Positions 1 to 19,001 of a stretch of 20,246 bases of DNA are shown here, in pieces. Position 1 is the first letter of the stretch; every line of letters begins with the position of its first letter. The position numbers and the translations under genes are program-made. The DNA is from a virus, in the IMG/VR virus record IMGVR_UViG_3300029914_000159, positions 1 to 20,246 of that record; one strand, written 5' to 3'. The notes under the pieces are model-generated. The model searched no databases, had not been told where the DNA came from, and saw nothing but the letters and a program-made list of their open reading frames with translations.

Positions 1-872
1 CTAGCTGAGGTTCCTGCGTTATTCGCGGAAACCAGCGCGGACGCGGCGGATACCGCAGCGTTGTTCGCAGAGGTTCCTGCGTTGTTTGCGGATACAAGAG
101 CGGCTGCGGCGGATACCGCAGCGTTGTTCGCAGAGGTTCCTGCGTTATTCGCGGAAACCAGCGCGGACGCGGCGGACGAAGCAGCGCTCCCGGCGTTCGC
201 TGAAATGACCGTGGCGTCGATCATCTTTAACAGGTACCCACCTGAAACGTCAGCGGCGACAGAGGTTCCTGAAATGTAAGAAGGTTGAGCGGTAACGTAG
301 TAGAGAGACAGGGTGGCGGGGTCTTGAACTGTATCGGCGTAGTAGTAGGTAGCACCAGTTGTCCAGTTGCCCCGCCATTTCCCAAACTGTGTTATCGCGA
401 CAGGATCACCACTGGCATCGAAGCCTAAAAGCATTCCTGCGCGAGAGGCCAACGTTGGAAGAACGTTTGTCGCGGAGCCCGTGTCCGCGATAGGAAATTG
501 TATGGAACGATTCGATTGATCCTGCAACTGCTGCGAGATCATGGTCAGCTTGTCGAACGCGCTGGTGACATCGGCGCCTGTCCATCTCGCGTTGTCCACG
601 AAGTTGTCGACCTGCGTCAGCGGCTCCACTCTGTAAATAAGAACCTGAATACCGCTCGCAGGGGCTACCACAAAGGTAACAGTCACTGCGGAAGTGGTCA
701 CGTCGCCGGATACCGTATAGTCGGTTCCGTAGGTGCAGTTGTAAGTTCCTGCGGTTCCTGTTAAGGACGCTTGAACGTCTGTGAAATCAATTACCGGAAA
801 ATTAGTGCTGAACGCAACCGTTACGCCGTTTCCGATATATGAAGTCTTTATGGATGTGTTGGTTACGCTCAT
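1..872 (-). CDS. Tail fibre protein, N-terminal 290 residues (runs off the left edge)
   Basis: This is the virion-proximal part of a host-recognition fibre; the receptor-binding end lies outside the window. Translation from ATG at 872 stays open to base 1. Residues 1-125 follow the T7 gp17-type N-terminal pattern that anchors the fibre to the tail: YIGNGVTVAFSTNFPV, then GTDYTV, then a VTFVVAPASG strand, YRVEPLTQ, and a helix DKLTMISQQLQDQSNRS ending in FP. About residues 163-215 hold a small aromatic module (KWRGNW, YYYADTV, LYYVTAQ). From about residue 225 the chain is Ala/Ser/Asn-rich and repeats every 21 residues, as in fibre shafts. AAGGAA lies about 9 nt before the ATG. The gene starts 37 nt after the 563-aa internal protein ends and is the last visible member of the leftward structural block. 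The family is fairly sure; the receptor specificity is unknown. Confidence 0.85.
   Translation of the reverse strand, partial: MSVTNTSIKTSYIGNGVTVAFSTNFPVIDFTDVQASLTGTAGTYNCTYGTDYTVSGDVTTSAVTVTFVVAPASGIQVLIYRVEPLTQVDNFVDNARWTGADVTSAFDKLTMISQQLQDQSNRSIQFPIADTGSATNVLPTLASRAGMLLGFDASGDPVAITQFGKWRGNWTTGATYYYADTVQDPATLSLYYVTAQPSYISGTSVAADVSGGYLLKMIDATVISANAGSAASSAASALVSANNAGTSANNAAVSAAAALVSANNAGTSANNAAVSAASALVSANNAGTSA
7..195 (-). repeat. 63-bp tandem repeat inside the tail fibre gene
   Basis: The motif GAGGTTCCTGCGTT begins at 7, 70 and 133, giving a period of exactly 63 bp, or 21 residues. The units encode variants of NNAGTSANNAAVSAAAALVS. The first two units are nearly identical at DNA level; the third decays after about 175. 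Twenty-one residues equal three heptads, which suits a trimeric coiled or helical shaft. The array probably continues past the left edge. Confidence 0.85.
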
Positions 873-2601: not shown

Positions 2602-5312
2602 GATCCGCCTTTTGGCCCTAGATTCGTAACGGTGCCAGATACGGGTATACCTTTATCAAACCCTCCGGGCTTATACAAATCAACGCGGTCGTCTTTTAAT
2701 TTTTGGGATGTTCTATCATGAAATCTAACATAGGACACCTTCCCGTCGCTGTGTTCTATCTTTAAGACGTCGTTCGGCTTGGCATTAAGTTTTTTCTCTG
2801 ACGAAGGGGACAACGCCGCGGATACACCGTCCTGCAAGTGCATGCTTTCCGAAAGACCTATGCCTTTTTTAGTGTTGGAATCAGGGGTTGAATCTCCGGG
2901 ATATCCGTACTGAGTTACCTTCATTGGAATCGAAACCGGTTTTCCCGAAGGTACGACCTGACTCGTAGCTTGAGGCGCAATAGGGGGGCTCTGGTACTGT
3001 GGCGGTATCGCGTTCTTGGGTATCAGCTCGTCCAGATGCGACGATGACCAGAACTCTCCGGGAGTAGAAATAGAACGCTTCTGTGCTTCCAACACGCTTT
3101 TTAGTGCGGCTAAATTAAATTGCAGTGTCCGCCCATCTTGCAGCTTTACCGGAGCCATGTGACCCCCTAGGTCTTTGAGAAAGGTAAGTGACTTTGTCCG
3201 GTCATCGTAGGCCCACACATGAGGCGTATTGAAGCCCCATAGCCAGCCGGATTTAAGTTCGCCTAGAGGCGTGTAATCTGCGGGGGTCGTGCCCCCCATA
3301 AACGTGTTATTATCCCGCGATTTTACCATGTCGTGCAGCAAGTTATCCGCATCGCCGATATGCTGCTTGATCTCGGCTTCATCTTTAAACACACCTGTCG
3401 GGAACAACGTCATCTTTCCACCCTGCGTGACCGGAACGTATGCGTGCCCGAAGGACTCCTGCACCACCGTATTGACCGCATCCCGGTTCGATAATCCATT
3501 ATGGCTATGCTGCAAATCAAGTGCGGCATTTGATAACGTCTCTTCCCATTCGGTCGGAGTCATACCGCCCGGAACCTTCCCGATGGTATCCTGGGTTACA
3601 ATAGCTGAATAGAGTGGGTTCTTTTGGACGAGCGCGCCCATCGTGTGAATGTCTTTGGGCGCGTACTTCACTTTGTTTTCGCTGTTCGCCAGCCGGTCGT
3701 AAAAGTCTTTGTTATCCGGGTTCAGGCGGAGCAAGTTCACCGCGCCCGACACTTGGCCATGCCCGTTTCCCATGACCTCGCCGATAAGCTGATTTCCCGT
3801 CGCTTTGTCGGGATTTCCCATCGCTTCGCGTATGAAATCCCCTTTGGCCTGATCCGTGCGAAGACCCGCGCGTATGTTATCCGCTACGTCTTTAGGCAGG
3901 AGCATCTCACTCCCAACCGGAACGCCAACAGCATTCTGGGCGGCGGATGACTTTTCTTTGTAAAGCGTGAGAAGGCCATATTTATCCCCGCGCTCTTGCG
4001 GGTTGCTCGACGGGGCTGACATCCATTTAGTAAGCGCGTCGTTTATATCAGGATTCTTATTAGCATATCCTGCGGGGTCTGCCGTCTTAGAGCCTGTAGG
4101 AGCTAACATCCTCTTGGCATCACCAAGCTGTTTATCCATGCTAGCCCACAAATGCACCGAATCGCGGTCATTGAATTCAGCCTTTATCTCGTTCACCTTT
4201 TGCACTTGCTGCTCAAAAGGAAGGTTACGAATACCCGCCATGGCGGTTGAAACAATTCCTGTCTGGTAGTACTGATCTATGGCTTCGAGCGCAGAATTGC
4301 TTGCCTTCCCGGAATCGGCCATCTCCGATAGTTCCTGCTTCCGATAGTCCTGTATTTTCAGCAAGCCTTGAACCAAGTCAGGACGAGGCCCAACGCCGGG
4401 GTCTTCCATATGCGCCTGCGCCCTCGCGAGATTCGCAAATGCGGCCCCCCACTCCTTCGGGGAATGCGATGTGCCGTTAGACTCATCGTCTTTGAAAGCG
4501 TCTAATTTCTGCCTTGCTACGGACACCCCAACGCGGCTGTCAACTTCCCCCTGATTCCAGAGAAGATTAACAGTATGTTGTTCTTGAACCGGATCAAGTT
4601 GCACGCCGAGGCCACCTTTGGAGATAACCGTTGCTGCGGGGATCGGGCCTATCTGTTTAGCTAAACCTGCTAGGCCGCCCTGAACGGCTGCGGATATAGC
4701 CTGACTTACTATCCGCGGAGCATCGGGAACCAGAGAGGTCATTCCCGGCACATTCTGCATCGCCTTTACGGTTTTTATTTGTTCGTGCATGTTCGCCACC
4801 GGGTCGCCGCCCTGAGACACGAGCGCACCTGTTAGAGCATCCGTAAAATCGCGTCGATTCTTTTTTAAATTGTACTGGGCCTCAATGTTAATCCCACGAT
4901 TAACCGCACGCGCGCGAAGGCCGAATGTATATTCAAGGAACATGTTTTGCGCCAAACCATCGAAGCCGCCTTTAGCTGCTTCCTCCGCGTTCTTTTCCCA
5001 GCGAGCGTCAAACTCTGCTGTATTAACAGGCGTACCATTGGCCTCGGCTTGACCGAGTTCCTGATGCATGGCGATGTTGTACTTGCTCGCCTGGTTCATG
5101 GCCCAAAGCTTGGCCTGAGCAGATTCGTATTCCTCGCCTGCATGGACTGCACTACCAACACCCCTCTGAAGCCCCGAGAAGTCTACCCCGATGTTATCCA
5201 TGTGGGGCGCAGTGTTGGTATTATATCCGTGGATAACGTCAGGAGCCGAAACGTTGATAGCGTTCGGATTCTCTGTCTCTTGCACGTCCAAAGCTGGTAC
5301 TGGTGTTCTCAT
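2598..5312 (-). CDS. Large internal virion protein with C-terminal 3D/double-psi-barrel-like domain, 904 aa
   Basis: This is likely an inner-core or ejection protein, placed like T7 gp15 after a gp14-like gene. Residues 1-770 are mostly helical and charged, without recognised motifs. From residue 799 the chain resembles a 3D / RlpA-type double-psi beta-barrel: QYGYPGDSTPDSNT, GIG, AALSP, a KPNDVLKI turn, SDGK, FHDRT and RVDLY. Asp residues near 807, 811, 866 and 878 fall where this family keeps its acidic residues. In MltA-like enzymes such barrels act in peptidoglycan lytic transglycosylation, so the inference is a cell-wall-opening activity carried in the virion. ATG at 5312 follows the previous stop by one base (TAA-T-ATG) and the end overlaps the next gene by 4 bp. 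Role as a virion protein: fairly likely. Barrel: motif-based. Enzyme activity: inferred. Confidence 0.65.
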   Translation of the reverse strand: MRTPVPALDVQETENPNAINVSAPDVIHGYNTNTAPHMDNIGVDFSGLQRGVGSAVHAGEEYESAQAKLWAMNQASKYNIAMHQELGQAEANGTPVNTAEFDARWEKNAEEAAKGGFDGLAQNMFLEYTFGLRARAVNRGINIEAQYNLKKNRRDFTDALTGALVSQGGDPVANMHEQIKTVKAMQNVPGMTSLVPDAPRIVSQAISAAVQGGLAGLAKQIGPIPAATVISKGGLGVQLDPVQEQHTVNLLWNQGEVDSRVGVSVARQKLDAFKDDESNGTSHSPKEWGAAFANLARAQAHMEDPGVGPRPDLVQGLLKIQDYRKQELSEMADSGKASNSALEAIDQYYQTGIVSTAMAGIRNLPFEQQVQKVNEIKAEFNDRDSVHLWASMDKQLGDAKRMLAPTGSKTADPAGYANKNPDINDALTKWMSAPSSNPQERGDKYGLLTLYKEKSSAAQNAVGVPVGSEMLLPKDVADNIRAGLRTDQAKGDFIREAMGNPDKATGNQLIGEVMGNGHGQVSGAVNLLRLNPDNKDFYDRLANSENKVKYAPKDIHTMGALVQKNPLYSAIVTQDTIGKVPGGMTPTEWEETLSNAALDLQHSHNGLSNRDAVNTVVQESFGHAYVPVTQGGKMTLFPTGVFKDEAEIKQHIGDADNLLHDMVKSRDNNTFMGGTTPADYTPLGELKSGWLWGFNTPHVWAYDDRTKSLTFLKDLGGHMAPVKLQDGRTLQFNLAALKSVLEAQKRSISTPGEFWSSSHLDELIPKNAIPPQYQSPPIAPQATSQVVPSGKPVSIPMKVTQYGYPGDSTPDSNTKKGIGLSESMHLQDGVSAALSPSSEKKLNAKPNDVLKIEHSDGKVSYVRFHDRTSQKLKDDRVDLYKPGGFDKGIPVSGTVTNLGPKGGS

Positions 5313-5313
5313 A

Positions 5314-5883
5314 TTATGCGCCCATGGCCCCGCCGATTATTTCACCGAGGCCAGCGGCCATCTTAAGGCCTCCGCCCACCTCGTTAAAGAAGTTCGTTTC
5401 CTTGTCCACATTCGCCTTATACTGGTCCATCACAGATTCATTTTGGTAATACGTCTGTTTCACTAAGTCGTTGTAGCTAGATGTATTCGCATTGGTCTGA
5501 TTTTGCCAGACAGAAAGTTGGGTGCGGTAGTTCTCCTGAAGCCGGGAACGCTCCTGGTTCATGGTCGAGCTGTAAATAGCATCTGCTGTTGAGCCTGAAA
5601 CCTGTCCACCGCCCGCGCCTGCGTTATTGACGGCGGTGGCTTGGGCGGCGCGGATACCTTCCTCCATCGCGCCTTCTTTGGACGCGCCCTGCGTGGCGAT
5701 CATGTTCTTCTGAGCGGAGTACTGCATCTCCGTCTGCTGCCGCTCCCATGCCGCGATCTGTGCGTTATTCGCAGCCACTTCCGAATTGTAAATGTCCGCT
5801 TTGACATTACTGCCCTGCATGGCTTGGATAATAGACAGTCCGCCGCCTATCATATCCCCCACGCCGCTGGCAATCATTGTCAT
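5314..5883 (-). CDS. Internal virion protein, T7 gp14-like, 189 aa
   Basis: The length is close to that of T7 gp14 (about 196 aa), and the layout is typical of that family. A hydrophobic Gly-rich N-terminus (MIASGVGDMIGGGLSIIQAM) is followed by a long Gln/Asn/Ala-rich helical segment with WERQQTEMQYSAQKNM, and a Gly-rich C-terminus (GGGLKMAAGLGEIIGGAMGA). In T7, gp14 is ejected first and helps form the channel in the outer membrane. The gene lies directly after the gp12-like tail gene, as expected. GGAG lies 11 nt upstream of ATG 5883, and the junction with the previous gene is TAA-T-ATG. There is a second in-frame ATG two codons in. The assignment rests on position, size and composition rather than a diagnostic motif. 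Confidence 0.7.
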   Translation of the reverse strand: MTMIASGVGDMIGGGLSIIQAMQGSNVKADIYNSEVAANNAQIAAWERQQTEMQYSAQKNMIATQGASKEGAMEEGIRAAQATAVNNAGAGGGQVSGSTADAIYSSTMNQERSRLQENYRTQLSVWQNQTNANTSSYNDLVKQTYYQNESVMDQYKANVDKETNFFNEVGGGLKMAAGLGEIIGGAMGA

Positions 5884-9520: not shown

Positions 9521-10468
9521 TTATGCCGACATATCAAACGGAATCGATACGACGCGCTCTTCAAACATGCGCACGCAATCAAAATCAGCATACGACTGAA
9601 TCTGATACACTTCGCCGACTTTATTCGGGAGAAGGTCGATACGAGCAGTAACGGGTTTAAGGTTGGTGAACTTGGCCGCTTGAGAGGTGAACATGACAGC
9701 GGTCGCCGTGCCTGAGTTAGACCCTGCATTGATAGTAGGGATAAGCTCGGTACGAATGAACGTGACACCCAAAGCCCGCTGCACGGGGTGGGAATCAATA
9801 TCGGTCAGCCACTTATTGTCGCTGTAGAAGATATTGGTAACTTGCTGGTCACGCTTGAGTTGGTTAAGACCCCAAGTATTGATAGCGACAATAACCTCGT
9901 CGCCGGGAAGCACTGCTTCCTGAGAATTGAGGAGATTGAGGCCGTACTTGATCTTGCCAACCGTCATGCCGGTGTTGCCCGCTACGGAAGTACCAGTTGT
10001 GACGCCAGATTCCATGTAGCCAATAGGGACGACCTGCGAAGAAGGCAGCGCAACCGAAGCGGTTGTAGTGCCGTAGTCGCTGGTGGACAGTGCTGTTCCA
10101 AGCAATGCGGAGATGGTGATAATGTCCTTTTGACGTTCCATCGCGTACATAGCAGAACGAACAAAGTCGCCTGTTGGGTTGATGTTGGCACGGATGGTAT
10201 CTGCGTCATCCAATGCGGTTCCCCAGTATACGCGCTTGGGAGCGACGATACGCCTTGAGAACTGAGGATCACTATTCACAATATCCATATTGCGAGAGGT
10301 AGCGATCTGGGGCTGAGCAAAAGCTGCTAAGCGGGTGTAGAATTTACGAACGCCTGCCATTTTGTCTTCTTGGAGAAAACGGGTCAGGCGAGCTTCCATC
10401 TGCTGCGAAGCCAAGTTAATGTACGTTTCGTACTGTTGGATATCCGCGGCATCAAATGTAGCTGCCAT
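9521..10468 (-). CDS. Major capsid protein, 315 aa
   Basis: Identified by the signature of one HK97-fold coat family: a long N-terminal helix, then RRIVAPKRVYWGTALDDAD, IRANINPTGDFVRSAMYAME and KDIITISALLGTA (residues 72-125), matching the common form ..dDvD..R..idPts.yv..a..a..R..Dd.ii.al.G.a. Later segments, GDEVIVAINTWGLNQL and ADFDCVRMFEERVVSIPFD, fit the beta-rich axial domain and C-terminus. The position after the scaffold and before a decoration-type gene supports it. ATG 10468 has the ribosome site AAAGGA with the GG about 9 nt upstream. Its 5' flank is unlike any other gene here: a promoter and a structured leader precede it, and part of the ribosome site can pair with a distant arm. 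Confidence 0.88.
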   Translation of the reverse strand: MAATFDAADIQQYETYINLASQQMEARLTRFLQEDKMAGVRKFYTRLAAFAQPQIATSRNMDIVNSDPQFSRRIVAPKRVYWGTALDDADTIRANINPTGDFVRSAMYAMERQKDIITISALLGTALSTSDYGTTTASVALPSSQVVPIGYMESGVTTGTSVAGNTGMTVGKIKYGLNLLNSQEAVLPGDEVIVAINTWGLNQLKRDQQVTNIFYSDNKWLTDIDSHPVQRALGVTFIRTELIPTINAGSNSGTATAVMFTSQAAKFTNLKPVTARIDLLPNKVGEVYQIQSYADFDCVRMFEERVVSIPFDMSA

Positions 10469-10470
10469 AT

Positions 10471-10680
10471 AAAGGTTCCTTTGGTTGTGGTTCTAAAACA
10501 ATTCCAGAGAATTAGCGGCTCTCTGAATTAACCGATCCGCCCTTTTCGTTCTTCAGGTTATCGCTTTCGCGGCCTGAATAACTACGAAGACTTCAACCAG
10601 ATACGTCTGGCTGCCACCGGGAACCTTTACATCCCGCCACGGGTCGCGGCTTTCGCCGGATTATCACGTTGCGGGATGTA
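10471..10680 (-). ncRNA. Structured RNA leader upstream of the major capsid gene
   Basis: The gap between scaffold and capsid holds nested complementarity when read on the minus strand. P0: TACATCCCGC (10680-10671) with GCGGGATGTA (10637-10628), 10 perfect pairs, enclosing CGGC-GAAA-GCCG (10658-10647). P1: AAAGGTTCC (10628-10620) with GGAACCTTT (10479-10471), 9 perfect pairs, abutting P0 so the helices could stack. Inside P1: CCAGA-CGTA-TCTGG (10610-10597); TTCAGG (10578-10573) with CCTGAA (10557-10552), enclosing CGC-GAAA-GCG; and an AT-rich hairpin at 10529-10500. Two loops are GNRA tetraloops. The 3' arm of P1 overlaps the capsid ribosome site AAAGGA, so pairing could regulate translation; a processing or stability role is also possible. 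It matches no RNA family that I recognise. Pairings were found by eye and not by energy calculation. Confidence 0.55.
10495..10529 (-). terminator. Possible weak terminator or attenuator hairpin before the capsid gene
   Basis: On the minus strand AATTCAGAGA pairs with TCTCTGGAATT (10 pairs, one bulged G, 9-nt loop) and is followed by GTTTTAG. It resembles an intrinsic terminator, but the stem is AT-rich and the T-run is four bases. It lies between the capsid promoter and the capsid start codon, where a strong terminator would make no sense, so an attenuator or an mRNA-stabilising hairpin is more plausible. Confidence 0.3.
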
Positions 10681-10705
10681 TATACCGTATCAGACTGATT
10701 GTCAA
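10677..10705 (-). promoter_or_regulatory. Sigma70-type promoter for the capsid transcript
   Basis: On the minus strand a perfect -35 TTGACA (10705-10700) is followed after 17 nt by TATACA (10682-10677); TATATA at 10684-10679, with 15-nt spacing, is a second choice. The -35 overlaps the scaffold stop codon. Transcription would begin near 10670 and run into the capsid gene. The -10 region overlaps the left arm of the 10-bp inverted repeat, so short transcripts would lack that arm while read-through transcripts would carry it. Confidence 0.6.
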
Positions 10706-11610
10706 CTCTTTGGATACGCGGCTTGAAAGAGCTCATGCATTTTCTTCTCGGCAGCAGCATTACCGGGATGTCGGGGATTCATCAGAGCTTTAACGGTTTC
10801 CGGGTCAGCCTTCATACGCTCGATCTCGGACTTGGCCGCCGCAGCCGACTCCAGGAAATTACCCCCGCCCAATTGCGGTACGCCCGTGATGATCTGGTGA
10901 TCCCGGAGAGTCGCCCCGGCCTTCACCATCAAGTCGATGAATGTGGGATCTTGGGTAAGGCCTTTTTCCTTGGCCCAAGCGATTGTTTTTTCGCCCCCGA
11001 GTTTTTGCAGGACACGATCGCCGCCGTCTAGCGCATTCTTCCAATCGTCTCCATAGCTTCGTTGAAGTTCGGTCAAGGCAGCTTGCCGGGCCTGTTCAGC
11101 CTTCGCATGCCCTTCAGAGGCTACGCCGACACCTTTGAGCTGCCATGCAGCATAACCGTCACGAACAGCCTTGGCTTGCGCCGAGGTAAGGCCCGCTTTG
11201 TGCATGATCTGTGCGACAACCTTATCGCCCTCCTCGTTGTACTGGCCATGTAGTTCTTTAGGGATGGTATCCTTATTGAACCCATACTTGTCCGGGGTTT
11301 CGGGACGTCCTAGCTTACCATAGAGATCGCTCCATTCTTTTTCCGTCCACGCGTCATTCGGTTTAGGGAGGTGCGCTCCCCGAAATGCTTCTAACTCCAG
11401 GTACGATTTGCTCAACGCATTAACATCGCCGAACTTAGCTAGCGAAGCGTTCGTTTTGAGATCCGCTGGGAGGGATTCTCTCCATGTTCCAGCGGTTAAG
11501 CCCGTCATTACTGTTTCTGTCGTGGTAGCGGGCGCGCCTGCTCCGGTGGTAATCGGGGCTGCCCCACCAAGGGCTGCGCCTGCTTCTTGTGCTGCAATTG
11601 CTTCAGTCAT
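10702..11610 (-). CDS. Capsid scaffolding/assembly protein, 302 aa
   Basis: The N-terminal 30 residues are a Gly/Ala/Thr-rich linker. Residues 40-110 match the podoviral scaffold pattern: WRESLPADLKTNASLAKFGD, NALSKSYLELE, then LPKPNDAWTEKEWSDLYGKL and GRPETPDKYGF. The middle is a long charged helix (KAEQARQAALTELQRSYGDD) and the C-terminus is short and basic (EKKMHELFQAAYPKS), as in many scaffolds that bind coat protein through a C-terminal helix. It acts inside the procapsid and leaves before DNA is packaged. ATG 11610 has AAGGA 9 nt upstream and overlaps the end of the Bbp19-like gene by 8 bp. The order portal, small protein, scaffold, coat is conserved in related phages. Confidence 0.85.
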   Translation of the reverse strand: MTEAIAAQEAGAALGGAAPITTGAGAPATTTETVMTGLTAGTWRESLPADLKTNASLAKFGDVNALSKSYLELEAFRGAHLPKPNDAWTEKEWSDLYGKLGRPETPDKYGFNKDTIPKELHGQYNEEGDKVVAQIMHKAGLTSAQAKAVRDGYAAWQLKGVGVASEGHAKAEQARQAALTELQRSYGDDWKNALDGGDRVLQKLGGEKTIAWAKEKGLTQDPTFIDLMVKAGATLRDHQIITGVPQLGGGNFLESAAAAKSEIERMKADPETVKALMNPRHPGNAAAEKKMHELFQAAYPKS

Positions 11611-11896
11611 ATAGGTTTTCCTTCTTTTGCTCTTCCATCTCCTGAATGAGACTTGTTATCTCATTGGAGAAATCGTTTGAATCGTAAACCGTATGCAGTA
11701 TCTGCAGTATGAAGGCCCTTTGGCCCTCCATAAAGCTGCGCTTCTCGTCGGTGTCGGTCATTTTAGGCACTGAATAGTGTACCTTCAACCAGTCGCGAAT
11801 AAGTGCCTTACCGTCCTCGGAGGTAAAGACCCGGTTATAAATACGTTTAATATCGCGCTTCTTCTGAAGACGCTCGATCTGCTTTTCTTGAGTCAT
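11603..11896 (-). CDS. Bbp19-like small phage protein, 97 aa
   Basis: This small charged helical protein lies between portal and scaffold. The core IYNRVFTSEDGKALIRDWL followed by FMEGQRAFILQILHTV recalls the Bbp19-like domain known from Bordetella phage BPP-1, with its F.s.dG...L..L and eG.R.....i. pattern. The C-terminal 25 residues are acidic (EITSLIQEMEEQKKENLYD). Its function is not established; the position suggests a role in portal or procapsid assembly. The ATG overlaps the portal stop by one base (TAATG), and its own stop overlaps the scaffold start by 8 bp, so all three are probably translationally coupled. The family call comes from pattern memory. Confidence 0.65.
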   Translation of the reverse strand: MTQEKQIERLQKKRDIKRIYNRVFTSEDGKALIRDWLKVHYSVPKMTDTDEKRSFMEGQRAFILQILHTVYDSNDFSNEITSLIQEMEEQKKENLYD

Positions 11897-14475: not shown

Positions 14476-14727
14476 ACTTCCACCTTGGCGAGGTACTCGC
14501 CTGATCGATTGCTGGAACTTTGGAAAACAGAATATGGCTTTGACCTCGATATGGCCCTGGGCCGACAGCTCGCGCTGATCGAAGCTAGCAAAGAGATAAA
14601 CCCGCTGGACAAAGTTGACGCTTTTATCAAGGTCAAGAACAGCGTCGAAAAGGCTAAGAGTGGGAGCAAGGATATCAAAATAGGTCAACTCGCTGTCATA
14701 GGCCGCGACTTTTCAAAGGACAAGTGA
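14473..14727 (+). CDS. terS: Terminase small subunit (putative), 84 aa
   Basis: The product would recognise phage DNA and load the large terminase during packaging. The main evidence is context: it lies directly upstream of, and overlaps by 4 bp (GTGA), the large terminase gene. Its size is close to T7 gp18 (89 aa), and the sequence is a charged helical protein (SPDRLLELWKTEYGFDLDMA, then KVDAFIKVKNSVEKAKSGSK). The frame is open from 14335, but the upstream part would overlap the divergent gene, so I use the ATG at 14473. No Shine-Dalgarno is visible before this ATG. No clear helix-turn-helix can be assigned by eye. Confidence 0.65.
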   Translation: MTSTLARYSPDRLLELWKTEYGFDLDMALGRQLALIEASKEINPLDKVDAFIKVKNSVEKAKSGSKDIKIGQLAVIGRDFSKDK

Positions 14728-16289
14728 AACTGGGAGCTATGAGAGGCGGAGACGTTGTGCGGTCTATGCCGCGCGACGTTCTATTGGAGCAAGCCCGAAC
14801 CCGCATGCTAGCTCGCTCCGAGACGCCTATAACTATAACGGATAACCCTGTCGCTGAGATCGTTAGCGGGGTATCCGACAACACTCTTGTCCTTCCCGCG
14901 CTCGGATGGCGGCCTCGGCCCTACCAACAAAAAGCATGGGACTACTTCACAAGCCCACCCAACCCGAATAAAAAAGGTATCTGCAAACTGGGCGTCATGT
15001 GCTGGAGCCGACGAACTGGAAAAGACAACTTTCTCCTCAACCTGATCGCCTACATGACCACCAAAAGGAAAGGTACGTACTGGCACGTATTTCCTGAATT
15101 AAAGCAAGGCCGTAAAGCTATTTGGGAAGGCTACACGCAGGGAACAAATGCTCATCGCAACATCGACTATATCCCTGAACAGCTACGCGAGGGTAGTAAT
15201 GCAAACGAAATGCGTATCAACCTCGCCACGGGTTCTACCTATATGTTGGTAGGCGCATCCAACCCGGATGACGCTGCCGGGTCAGGGCCTATCGGCGTAG
15301 GCTTCTCCGAGTTCGCGCTTATGGACTCCGATCAAATATGGCGTGTCGTGAAACCCATGTTAAACGCGAATGGCGGATGGGCCTGCTTCATATCCACGCC
15401 TCGAGGGCATAACCACTTCAAACAAATTTACGACTTCGCCGCTTCCGATCCTAATTACTTCGCGGAAACTCTCACGGTCGATGAGGCCGTATGGACAGAG
15501 GACGGAAAGATGAAGCGGGCCGTCGAATACGAAGCTATCGAAGAAGATCGAAAGATGGGCTTCCCGGAAGAGTGGGTTCAGCAAGAATACTGGTGTAGCT
15601 TCTCCGCTGCTGTCGAAGGTGTTATATTTTCCAAAAACATGGTGGAGGCCCGCGCCAGCGGACGGATAACGCCTTTACCTTACCAGCCTCATCTACCTGT
15701 TTTCACCTCATGGGATGTTGGTTGGCGAGATGATATGGTGTGTCTCTTTTTTCAACTCGAACCAACAGGTGGCATAAATGTCATCGACTGCGAAGCCGGA
15801 AGTTTCATGGACTTCCGACAATTCAAAAAAATTCTTTTATCCAAGCCTTATCAGTATGGACGGCACTACGGCCCCCACGATTTGCGCCAGACCCGTGCAG
15901 GCGGTTGGAGTTCGTTCCGACAAGCAATCGAAGCTGGTATCAATTTTACCATCCTACCCAAGACCGGTGTCGATGAAGGCATCCAGAGGTGCAGAGCTTT
16001 GTTTCCCCGCATCCGGTTTAGCTCCTCGAAGTGCGCGAAGCTAATCGACATGCTGGACGCCTACCGCCGGGAATACGACGAATCGAAAAAGGTCTACACC
16101 GATCCTCGGCACGACAAGTCTTCTCACTATGCGGACGCCTTTAGATATATGTGCCAGGCCGTACCGGGAAGCCTTGGCGAGTTGTCCTATTTTAACTCCC
16201 TCGGTGACGAATCCGAATCATGCGAGATAGACCGCAATGAACCCGCCCGCGATGATCAAGATTGTCTTTGGAACATACATGCGGTATAA
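14724..16289 (+). CDS. terL: Terminase large subunit (ATPase and nuclease), 521 aa
   Basis: This is the DNA-packaging motor that docks on the portal, translocates DNA and cuts it. Visible motifs: adenine/Q-type region WRPRPYQQKAWDYF (62-75); Walker A variant WSRRTGKDN (94-102); Walker B region IGVGFSEFALMD (190-201); coupling motif STPRGHNHF (224-232). The RNase H-like nuclease has acidic residues at D331 (SWDVGWRD), D386 (GPHDLRQ) and D471 (HYADAFRYM). Length and motif order are normal. The proposed start is GTG 14724 in a GTGA overlap with terS, with AAAGGA very close; ATG 14739 with GGGAG is an alternative that would shorten it by five residues. The last 25 residues are acidic and variable. 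The 901-aa gene follows after 6 nt. Confidence 0.93.
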   Translation: MKLGAMRGGDVVRSMPRDVLLEQARTRMLARSETPITITDNPVAEIVSGVSDNTLVLPALGWRPRPYQQKAWDYFTSPPNPNKKGICKLGVMCWSRRTGKDNFLLNLIAYMTTKRKGTYWHVFPELKQGRKAIWEGYTQGTNAHRNIDYIPEQLREGSNANEMRINLATGSTYMLVGASNPDDAAGSGPIGVGFSEFALMDSDQIWRVVKPMLNANGGWACFISTPRGHNHFKQIYDFAASDPNYFAETLTVDEAVWTEDGKMKRAVEYEAIEEDRKMGFPEEWVQQEYWCSFSAAVEGVIFSKNMVEARASGRITPLPYQPHLPVFTSWDVGWRDDMVCLFFQLEPTGGINVIDCEAGSFMDFRQFKKILLSKPYQYGRHYGPHDLRQTRAGGWSSFRQAIEAGINFTILPKTGVDEGIQRCRALFPRIRFSSSKCAKLIDMLDAYRREYDESKKVYTDPRHDKSSHYADAFRYMCQAVPGSLGELSYFNSLGDESESCEIDRNEPARDDQDCLWNIHAV

Positions 16290-16295
16290 GGCGGC

Positions 16296-19001
16296 ATGAC
16301 TCAAGAAGCCAAAAACTGCTTTACCAAATTCGACTCCGAGGTTGCGGGCACAAATATAGATCCCGGCCTTCAAAGTACTCTCAGGAAGAACGCTCTCCAA
16401 GCCTTCAAATCCAATGACAGGGACGCGCTGCGCTCCACAATCCAACAGGCTATCGACGAACATAATTTTGGAACCGCTACCGCGCTCCGGCATGCTCTCA
16501 ACGACGCCGAGGTTGTTCAGAACAACACGCGCAAAGCAATCAAGATACTGGACACGACCAAAGGGGAAACACCCCATTACGCTTCTGCTGCGGACGCCTT
16601 GGCTGTAGGCGATGACGGTCGATCGACTGGCGGTCAGGCGCACATAGACCTTGCGTTAACCCATGGGGCCGACAAACAGACAGGCCGTCTGATGAACTAC
16701 ATTGACGGGCTCCTCCCTTATCTGAAAGCCAATGGAAAGGCTTATGCGGAAGCCATCTCAAAGGCCAAGGGGTCTACCCGCAAGACCCCTAATCTTGATG
16801 CACTATCTTCCAAAGAGCAGGAGATTCTCAGCGGCGTAGCCAAAGAGTTCACCGCGCACGCGGACGACATTCGCAACGAAGTTAATGCCAAAGGCGGTAA
16901 TATCGGGTACGACCCGGATCAAGTTATAACTCTACACTATGACCCTTTCAAAATGGCGAACGCCTCGCTGACTTCTAACCTGGACAAGGCCGCCAACTTC
17001 TTCCGCGACCGAAGAGGCACGACAAAGGACTACGAATCTTTCCGGGACTTCATGTCCCCCCGCATCGATTGGAAAGGCATGGAGGCTGATTTTAATGCCG
17101 AGCCAGAAAGGAAAAACAATCCCAGCCGTATCGGCTCAAGCAAGGCCAAGCAGGAAGAGTTCCTGAAGGAGTTCTATGATTCGCGCATGGGAGGCGGAAG
17201 ATCCCTTGACTCCACGGGGCAGCTTGTCGCCGAGGGGGAAATGGGGGAAGTGTCACTTCGCCCGAAGACCCTGAAAGAATTTAATCCTTCGAGCGCCTAC
17301 GATCATAACTCGGTGCTCAAGTACGTATCACCTGCAGCCGTCGCGGAGATCAATGAAAGGTTTGGAGCTGGTGATATGATCACTGCTATGAATAACCAAG
17401 TCCGGGGTATGGGACGCCAATCCGCCGCTTTGGAGAATCTTGGGCATAATCCTGTTGCCAACATGACTAAAGTGCTGGACGCTTTGCAAGCTCATCAGCA
17501 AGCAGACCCAAAGTTGACGCCCGGAGACAAAGCCGCGCTGAAGCTGGAAGGCGACAACGCCCGCGCCAATATTCTGCGCACTATTGAAGACCTATCGGGC
17601 GCTGGCCCCCGCGCCAATGACACCGCCAAGCTGCGGATGGTTCGCGCCTCCATGCAGGCTTTAAACTTGGAAGTCCTCGGTAAAGTCTTGTTTCCCCATA
17701 TGAACGCTGTGGGCTCGAACTTCTTCGCCATGGGGCCGGATGGCTTCACAGGTATGCGCCGGTTCCTTCTCCCCCTCATAGAGGCCAAGAACAGCCTGAC
17801 CCACGAGGACGGTCTGGACTACACCCGTAATATGGGCATCTGCTCGCGTTCCATGTTGAGCGAGATGCATAATATAAGTGCTTTCTCTTCCGGTGGCGCT
17901 CTTAGCCCCGAGGGATGGGTCGGCGCGGCGAACCGCATATTCCTCAAAGCATCTCTCCTTACCGGTTTTTCCGATATCGGTCGTCCAGCTATCCCCAAAG
18001 CCTACTCCAATGAGTTTGCCCATTACGCGGGGAAGTCTTTTGAGGAGCTAAAACCTGGACTCCAAAATCTTCTGAACCGGTACGATATTTCCCCTGAGCA
18101 CTGGGATATCATGCGCTCCAAAGGCGCTTATGAGGACGCTCATGGCAATAAGTACCTTGACACCGACCTTCACCGCTCCGACCAATTTAAGGACGACCCC
18201 AAGGGGCGAAGGATGGCGGATCAAGCCTCCGCCCGGTTCCAGCAAATGTTTTATGACGTCTCCAACGCGGCATTCGCCACCCCTAACTACAAGACCATGC
18301 ACGATGAAGTCTGGTTCAAGCCTGACGCCAAGCACCCCATCATGTCTCTTATGTCGGGCCAGTTTCAGAGTGTCGTAGCCGCCATGGGGCACCGCGTGTC
18401 CGGGGTCGCGTGGAATCAGCGCGTCAATGGCTCTAACATGTCTTCTGTCGCGGCCATGGCTCGTTATTACGGCGGTATGGGCATGCTTGGTATGGGTATT
18501 GTCGCCTTGGAACAAATGGCCTCTGGTAAGAACTCTTTGGGTTTTATCACCGATCCCGACATGGAAGACTCCGAACGTTTAACCCACGCGGCTCAACTCG
18601 CCGCCGCGGGCTGGGATCGTTCCGGCGTCATGGGCAAGTGGTCTGCATTGTTTTTAGCCCGTAGCGCACTTAGCACGGTCATTCCGGGTATGTCCCAATA
18701 CGATGCCACCCCTCGCTTGGGTGGGGCTCTTCTGAGCCATGCGGAACGTATTGGCAAAGCTTTGGCCCACACTTTCGAGGGTAAAGACAATCGCGGCGAA
18801 TGGGCCGACGTAGGGGTTGATAACGTTCCCTTCGCCAATTTATTCTACATCCGGCCTATCATCAACTACCTCGCTCTCTACGGTCTACATGAAAGCCTCA
18901 ACCCTGGTTATCTTCAGCACATGGAGGGTCTGGCGCGTAAGCAGGGTAACCCCTACGCCTTTCCTCCCTCAGAGTACGCCGCTCAACCCTTCGGCGATTA
19001 A
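16296..19001 (+). CDS. Large putative internal virion/ejection protein, 901 aa
   Basis: No enzyme motif is seen. The first 440 residues are charged and mostly helical. Residues 450-760 resemble the helical module found near the C-terminus of very large phage ejection and polyvalent proteins: AANRIFLKASLLTGFSDIGR (544-563), a helical LKPGLQNLLNRYDISPEHW stretch (585-603), then PIMSLMSGQFQSVVAAMGHR (681-700). This is followed by a Gly/Met-rich hydrophobic helix, YYGGMGMLGMGIVALEQM (724-741), that could enter a membrane. The C-terminus has FANLFYIRPIINYL and ends in Pro-rich FPPSEYAAQPFGD. A gp16-like core or ejection role is my inference. Unlike the other internal proteins it is encoded rightward, after terL, with the ribosome site AAGGCGG overlapping the terL stop. 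The stop shares TTAA with the opposing RusA-like gene. Confidence 0.6.
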   Translation: MTQEAKNCFTKFDSEVAGTNIDPGLQSTLRKNALQAFKSNDRDALRSTIQQAIDEHNFGTATALRHALNDAEVVQNNTRKAIKILDTTKGETPHYASAADALAVGDDGRSTGGQAHIDLALTHGADKQTGRLMNYIDGLLPYLKANGKAYAEAISKAKGSTRKTPNLDALSSKEQEILSGVAKEFTAHADDIRNEVNAKGGNIGYDPDQVITLHYDPFKMANASLTSNLDKAANFFRDRRGTTKDYESFRDFMSPRIDWKGMEADFNAEPERKNNPSRIGSSKAKQEEFLKEFYDSRMGGGRSLDSTGQLVAEGEMGEVSLRPKTLKEFNPSSAYDHNSVLKYVSPAAVAEINERFGAGDMITAMNNQVRGMGRQSAALENLGHNPVANMTKVLDALQAHQQADPKLTPGDKAALKLEGDNARANILRTIEDLSGAGPRANDTAKLRMVRASMQALNLEVLGKVLFPHMNAVGSNFFAMGPDGFTGMRRFLLPLIEAKNSLTHEDGLDYTRNMGICSRSMLSEMHNISAFSSGGALSPEGWVGAANRIFLKASLLTGFSDIGRPAIPKAYSNEFAHYAGKSFEELKPGLQNLLNRYDISPEHWDIMRSKGAYEDAHGNKYLDTDLHRSDQFKDDPKGRRMADQASARFQQMFYDVSNAAFATPNYKTMHDEVWFKPDAKHPIMSLMSGQFQSVVAAMGHRVSGVAWNQRVNGSNMSSVAAMARYYGGMGMLGMGIVALEQMASGKNSLGFITDPDMEDSERLTHAAQLAAAGWDRSGVMGKWSALFLARSALSTVIPGMSQYDATPRLGGALLSHAERIGKALAHTFEGKDNRGEWADVGVDNVPFANLFYIRPIINYLALYGLHESLNPGYLQHMEGLARKQGNPYAFPPSEYAAQPFGD

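Follow-up and report, generated by a model that had tools for sequence, protein, structure and literature searches.

A hairpin ahead of the major capsid gene, shared by hundreds of related phages including abundant ocean phages, is a probable, so far unrecognised site of control over capsid building

Results

The capsid-gene locus and its leader

The DNA analysed here (the window) is a 20,246-nt stretch, positions 1-20,246 of IMG/VR virus record IMGVR_UViG_3300029914_000159, which comes from a podovirus. Its portal-capsid-tail block lies on the minus strand, and a terminase gene and a gene for a 901-aa virion protein (phrog_684) lie on the plus strand at 14724-19001. A tail-fibre-like ORF (3-872, minus strand) runs off the end of the record and contains repeats of the type SAASALVSANNAGTSANNAAV. 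Preceding the scaffold gene is a 97-aa ORF (11603-11896) whose match to Bbp19 of Bordetella phage BPP-1 is weak (PF25181, E 1.8e-4, under the curated cut-off); gp06 of the pelagiphage HTVC010P matches the same family strongly. Between the scaffold/protease-like and capsid ORFs lies a minus-strand gap of 233 nt (10701-10469), and the following features define the locus:

9521-10468, minus strand: major capsid protein gene (phrog_3437, E 7e-39; Pfam Phage_capsid_2, E 4e-31)
10469-10701, minus strand: capsid-gene leader, a structured RNA by its fold; a gap is also present in all 166 relative loci
10477-10482, minus strand: ribosome-binding site AAAGGA of the capsid gene, read from the sequence
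10702-11610, minus strand: upstream scaffold/protease-like gene (phrog_3742, E 2e-28, the family of HTVC010P gp07)

An initial annotation of this DNA had proposed that the capsid gene is preceded by an unrecognised structured RNA, and this proposal held. The leader (10701-10469) folds at -81.2 kcal/mol against a mean of -62.1 for its shuffles (z -4.35), with none of 200 shuffles as good, and a comparison with Rfam returned no match at the gathering score and none at E<=5; in addition, one of its hairpins belongs to a family spread through a large podovirus lineage, described below. The architecture that had been drawn was likewise recovered: a 10-bp helix (P0) and a helix of about 9 bp (P1) lie end to end, P1 encloses further hairpins, and two hairpins have GAAA loops, one inside P0 and the other at 10578-10552. 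The elements of this fold are:

10671-10680, minus strand: 5' arm of helix P0, UACAUCCCGC, pairing with 10637-10628
10628-10637, minus strand: 3' arm of helix P0, GCGGGAUGUA, pairing with 10680-10671
10620-10628, minus strand: 5' arm of the closing helix P1, AAAGGUUCC, pairing with 10479-10471
10471-10479, minus strand: 3' arm of the closing helix P1, GGAACCUUU, overlapping the ribosome site
10595-10612, minus strand: hairpin AGCCAGA-CGUA-UCUGGUU within P1 in the minimum-energy fold, without the GAAAGA loop of HpC in relatives
10503-10527, minus strand: terminator-like hairpin followed by AUUGUUUUAG, from a pattern scan (one found against 1.1 in shuffles, which is the chance level)

Inverted repeats of 10 bp like P0 arose in 1.8% of leader shuffles, and perfect P1-like helices of at least 9 bp with the ribosome-site region in 0.6%; pair probabilities in P1 were 0.81-1.0, with 0.11 for the outermost pair. 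A scan found no promoter before the leader. The candidate TTGACA-17-TATACA at 10705-10677 was rejected, being imperfect and implying a start about 7 nt downstream that would remove the 5' arm of P0.

Related loci and the recurring hairpin

Scans for portal and capsid genes yielded about 230 loci, of which 166 were distinct and had a usable capsid leader; an alignment spanning several capsid families (A1) had too much diversity to serve as a search query. The gap before the capsid gene is present in 166 of 166 loci (median 225 nt, minimum 78). No close relative of the window was found, the best capsid matches being about 32% identical or less, which leaves P0 and P1 without a relative for covariation; these helices and the ribosome-site pairing are not the conserved part of the leader. 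Fold stability was also rejected as a conserved feature, since the mean z over the 166 leaders (-1.16) is barely below that of coding controls (-0.99 and -0.86). Because the leaders are not unusually stable on average, the structures themselves were inspected, and this revealed a recurring hairpin.

The shared module is an asymmetric internal loop, 5'-GRNAR-3' opposite 5'-YC-3', within a hairpin that is often GNRA-capped a few base pairs beyond it. The loop occurs in matched types, GUAG with U and AUAA or ACAA with C. Among the 166 leaders, GUAG/U was found 84 times in 52 leaders (3.5 leaders in shuffles) and AUAA/C 33 times in 26 leaders (4.3 in shuffles), whereas the mismatched combinations GUAG/C and AUAA/U remained at chance level. 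GNRA-capped copies occurred in 39 of the 166 leaders against 0.4 in shuffles. An enumeration of all 4x1 loops that used no motif returned the same types (GUAG/U, 46 against 0.75; ACAA/C, 46 against 1.0; AUAA/C, 15 against 1.25), each of them in both strand orders; other high entries were mostly the same loops in a shifted register, or had low counts. The purines at loop positions 1 and 4 thus change together with the opposite pyrimidine, in a way that G.U and A.C wobble pairs could explain.

Raw counts of this kind are inflated by relatedness, and for that reason cluster and shuffle controls were used. With one leader taken per capsid cluster (60% identity), a strict copy was found in 9 of 29 clusters, against 0.10 in shuffles and 1 on the antisense strand, and was absent in 19 of 29. 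The density of GUAG/U and AUAA/C together was 1.95 per kb on the sense strand of the gap, compared with 0.06-0.18 per kb elsewhere or antisense.

Leaders often hold two copies in a common layout, with HpA, in which the four-nucleotide strand comes first, lying about 100-140 nt before the capsid start and HpB, in which the single nucleotide comes first, about 45-90 nt before it, so that the two have opposite strand orders. Their loop types agree in 36 leaders and disagree in 4. Several leaders showed features of their own. Those of L065 and L068 contain three AUAA/C hairpins each, all in the same strand order, and in L065 the last of these has a possible further pairing, AUAAGCCUC with GAGGCUUAU, which would involve the ribosome site. 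In HTVC010P (L351; 5622-5798), the HpA hairpin encodes the 3' end of the gp08 ORF (58 aa), a product unmatched in Pfam and PHROG. The whole element is spanned by an open frame in the L118 group, and the residues of this frame change while the RNA pairs are kept.

The window hairpins

Two hairpins of the window leader were compared with this family:

10552-10578, minus strand: HpB, UUCAGG[C]CGC-GAAA-GCG[AUAA]CCUGAA, with the single C at 10572, AUAA at 10561-10558 and the GAAA loop at 10568-10565
10642-10665, minus strand: tentative HpA-like core in P0, G[AUAA]UC-CGGC-GAAA-GCCG(C)GA[C]C, with extra bulges, recognised by eye

The window HpB has a GRNAR/YC 4x1 internal loop of the matched type AUAA with C, and it lies on the sense strand of a leader that precedes a PF19821/phrog_3437 capsid gene. 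Its pair probabilities are 0.85-1.0, and a GNRA-capped copy of the motif appeared in none of 3000 shuffles of the window leader. A covariance model (R2) built from 12 HpB-type hairpins of other phages, without the window, scored it at 23.2 bits (E 4.9e-6; next best 0.02) and also found the leaders of L026, L028 and L034; the stems of the R2 alignment were selected for pairing, and its covariation is not independent evidence. The window HpB is a member of the conserved RNA module family. It begins 110 nt before the capsid start codon, farther than the usual 45-90 nt.

The second, opposite-order copy inside P0 is unproven. By eye the core resembles the HpA cores of L003, L138 and L225, and its pattern, chosen after the core had been seen, is expected 0.13 times in the window. 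It is kept as tentative because an HpA-type model (R3) gave a match that was not significant (7.7 bits, E 7.3).

Covariation and blind searches

In an alignment (A4) of 47 leaders of about 100 nt, four hairpins, HpA, HpC (loop GAAAGA), HpD and HpB, are supported, with 98.2% of cells paired against 24-45% in slid controls. Double-change cells numbered 137, compared with 48 in shuffles. Since HpA had entered into the choice of leaders and the pattern dictated the HpB stem sequence, HpC and HpD form the unbiased part of this alignment. A model of the composite element (R1) gave 34 matches in 99 sources (580 kb, both strands), all of them sense and all in a capsid leader, pelagiphages included; over 13 whole records it gave at most one match each. 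The best R1 match in the window leader was 3.9 bits (E 4.9), and the composite HpA-HpC-HpD-HpB arrangement of the A4 group was not found there. R3 ranked the capsid-leader hairpin of HTVC010P first in that genome (E 0.08), E-values of such short models being rough. MAFFT misaligned short hairpins that differed in length, and these alignments were left out of the models.

Hairpin DNA patterns containing no capsid information were then run on 2.9 million viral contigs. For the pattern GTGTCCGNRAGGGTAGCAC, this same capsid gene begins 60-69 nt downstream in 79 of 80 loci. HpA lies upstream, mostly at exactly 72 nt, in 50 of the 57 distinct ones, which carry more than 30 different stem/loop sequences; the same pattern was absent from 257 Gb of bacterial and archaeal genomes. 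A pelagiphage HpA pattern had a capsid gene 123-172 nt downstream in all 74 loci where one could be seen, six further loci having at most 154 nt of downstream sequence. The window-hairpin pattern with its inner stem left free gave 52 matches. The inner stem pairs in 14, and 13 of these lie at a capsid start (in two of them the called ORF begins before the hairpin), whereas none of the 38 non-pairing matches does.

A second site at the scaffold/protease gene start

Across 151 loci, the first 50 nt of the scaffold/protease gene contained 28 sense and 0 antisense matches, compared with 0-3 in other bins. Within the coding region the hairpin occupies about +11 to +38, and it is confined to a subset of phages, namely two clades of relatives and one further phage (HTVC010P, Lederberg, the L075 group and L135); in most relatives no copy was detectable at this site. 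The start region of the window gene at 11610, both read directly and covered by the census, has no clear copy of the motif. The whole 35-kb genome of HTVC010P contains exactly two perfect GNRA-capped copies, one at 4762-4788 in the start region of gp07 (which starts at 4751) and the other at 5759-5781 in the capsid leader. Lederberg has the same two sites and two weaker matches that are not GNRA-capped. Different peptides are encoded at the start of gp07 (QITQETVP, QITQTDVP, QTTQTTEP, QITEQPASP, QTTEVTQP), and the RNA arms compensate. G-type or A-type identity agreed between the scaffold site and the capsid leader in 24 of 24 loci, a figure that comes mainly from two clades and is confounded by relatedness.

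Accessibility of the ribosome site

The initial annotation had also placed part of the capsid ribosome site within P1. P1 does cover the GGA of AAAGGA, but the predicted accessibility of the site in the window is 0.47, against 0.48 with a shuffled leader. P1 may modulate ribosome access in the window, but it is not the feature that is conserved. Over 163 loci, accessibility was 0.374 compared with 0.430 for shuffled leaders (p 0.002), a small effect, and sequestration was rejected as a general mechanism. In L154, L167, L171 and L182, a GGGG ribosome site pairs with an upstream CCCC arm, and the flanking complementary bases differ from phage to phage; sequestration may be real in this clade.

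These observations bear on a quite improbable reading, in which the capsid ribosome site is sequestered by P1-like helices and opens under the control of the hairpins. The pairing of P1 in the window, the slightly lower accessibility over the 163 loci and the different but complementary arms of the four phages speak for such a switch. However, the effect is small and is absent in the window and in many leaders with perfect hairpins, for example those of L118 and L125.

Discussion

Together, these observations appear to define an undescribed cis-acting RNA family of HTVC010P/BPP-1-type podoviruses, and we consider the chances about even that the leader hairpin is, as its distribution suggests, a putative mRNA operator for a trans-acting factor that balances scaffold and capsid. 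Recognition in trans is suggested by a module that is used in both strand orders and in between one and three copies, and that recurs with matching type at two genes. The factor would most likely be a phage capsid-assembly protein (the scaffold/protease or the capsid protein), the simplest candidate because these loci have scaffold and capsid genes in common, although the ligand could be a host protein. Bound to the module on late mRNA, it would adjust translation of scaffold and capsid and keep their ratio. The hairpin in the scaffold gene falls within the footprint of an initiating ribosome, where binding would block initiation. In the capsid leader the hairpin precedes the ribosome site, and its effect would be on the access of ribosomes or on the fate of the mRNA; direct blocking of the ribosome is not obvious there, since the copies lie 45-140 nt before the start. 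The early suggestion that the leader might adjust how much capsid is made for a given amount of scaffold, or that it might be bound by one of these two proteins, is one that we likewise favour, because some relatives have the same hairpin at the scaffold gene start; the binding itself is put forward as a proposal. In a bolder version, which we offer tentatively, a widespread RNA code may exist in which one module, in either order, tags scaffold and capsid mRNA, and an assembly protein reads both and sets the ratio, with coevolving G-type and A-type specificities.

Comparable arrangements are known. The coat-protein operators of the RNA phages MS2, PP7 and Qbeta are small hairpins that are tied to virion genes and have an unpaired element in the stem, a few base pairs from the loop. 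They resemble the present hairpin in lying at or near a start codon, as the scaffold-gene copy does, but differ in their bulged A; here the phages are tailed DNA phages, the loop is 4x1 in either strand order, there are at least two sites and the operator role is putative. In phage P22, autoregulation of the scaffolding protein balances scaffold and capsid synthesis post-transcriptionally. The same purpose would apply here, in a different type of phage and for a regulation that is itself a proposal.

Action at the level of transcription, from the capsid gene on, by a nascent-RNA antiterminator or an attenuator, is an unlikely reading. Two structured, strand-specific hairpins precede an abundant late gene, which recalls the put RNA of phage HK022, also made of two stem-loops (PMC9378689) and, like the present element, a two-hairpin sense-strand phage RNA near an operon start; moreover, a terminator-like hairpin follows HpB in some leaders, including that of the window. 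However, put RNA is about 70 nt long, lies near early promoters and binds RNA polymerase, whereas HpA and HpB are about 72 nt apart and not adjacent, the scaffold-start copies lie inside coding sequence, and terminator-like hairpins in the window are no more frequent than chance predicts. A search of 8 kb of the HK022 early region found no motif match where one was expected and only weak, chance-level matches otherwise; this motif search gave no support for identity with put.

Somewhat less probable still is an mRNA processing or stabilising element, in which the hairpins would either flag the mRNA for nuclease cleavage or protect it, and would so determine how long the capsid message lasts. 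This message has to be abundant, and stable leader helices, to which P0 and P1 may be compared, protect 5' ends in other phages. Against this, a conserved loop, strict covariation and occurrence in either strand order are more than stability requires, the leaders have no unusual average stability, and the scaffold-site copy is inside a coding region.

The agreement of HpA and HpB types (36 against 4), and the conserved hairpins between them in the best-studied group, would also fit a device made of RNA only, in which HpA and HpB dock into one domain, possibly as a small-molecule sensor; their opposite strand order would let the two lie side by side. We regard this as the least probable reading, because L065 and L068 have three copies in the same order, the scaffold copies are single hairpins, and there is no conserved expression platform. 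The putative operator read by a trans-acting factor remains the reading that we prefer.

Among catalogued RNAs, manA, wcaG and c4 are phage-associated structured RNAs (PMC2864571; Rfam 15) and are alike in being conserved structures in phage genomes. The GUCCY-hairpin is only named in the text of PMC2864571 and is not part of this comparison. Across these leaders Rfam returned nothing at the gathering threshold, and the L118 leader, like that of the window, had nothing at E<=5; HTVC010P gave two sub-threshold matches at chance level. In a literature search mostly outside subscription journals, we found no description of the hairpin element.

The hairpin adds a conserved RNA regulatory element, putative in its function, to a very abundant lineage, the HTVC010P-type pelagiphages and their relatives, in which gene control has been little studied. 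With its strict exchange between GUAG/U and AUAA or ACAA/C and its use of both strand orders, the internal loop is also an attractive module for structure determination. The long-standing problem of how scaffold and capsid protein are kept in balance in tailed phages would gain from the hairpin a concrete site that can be mutated.
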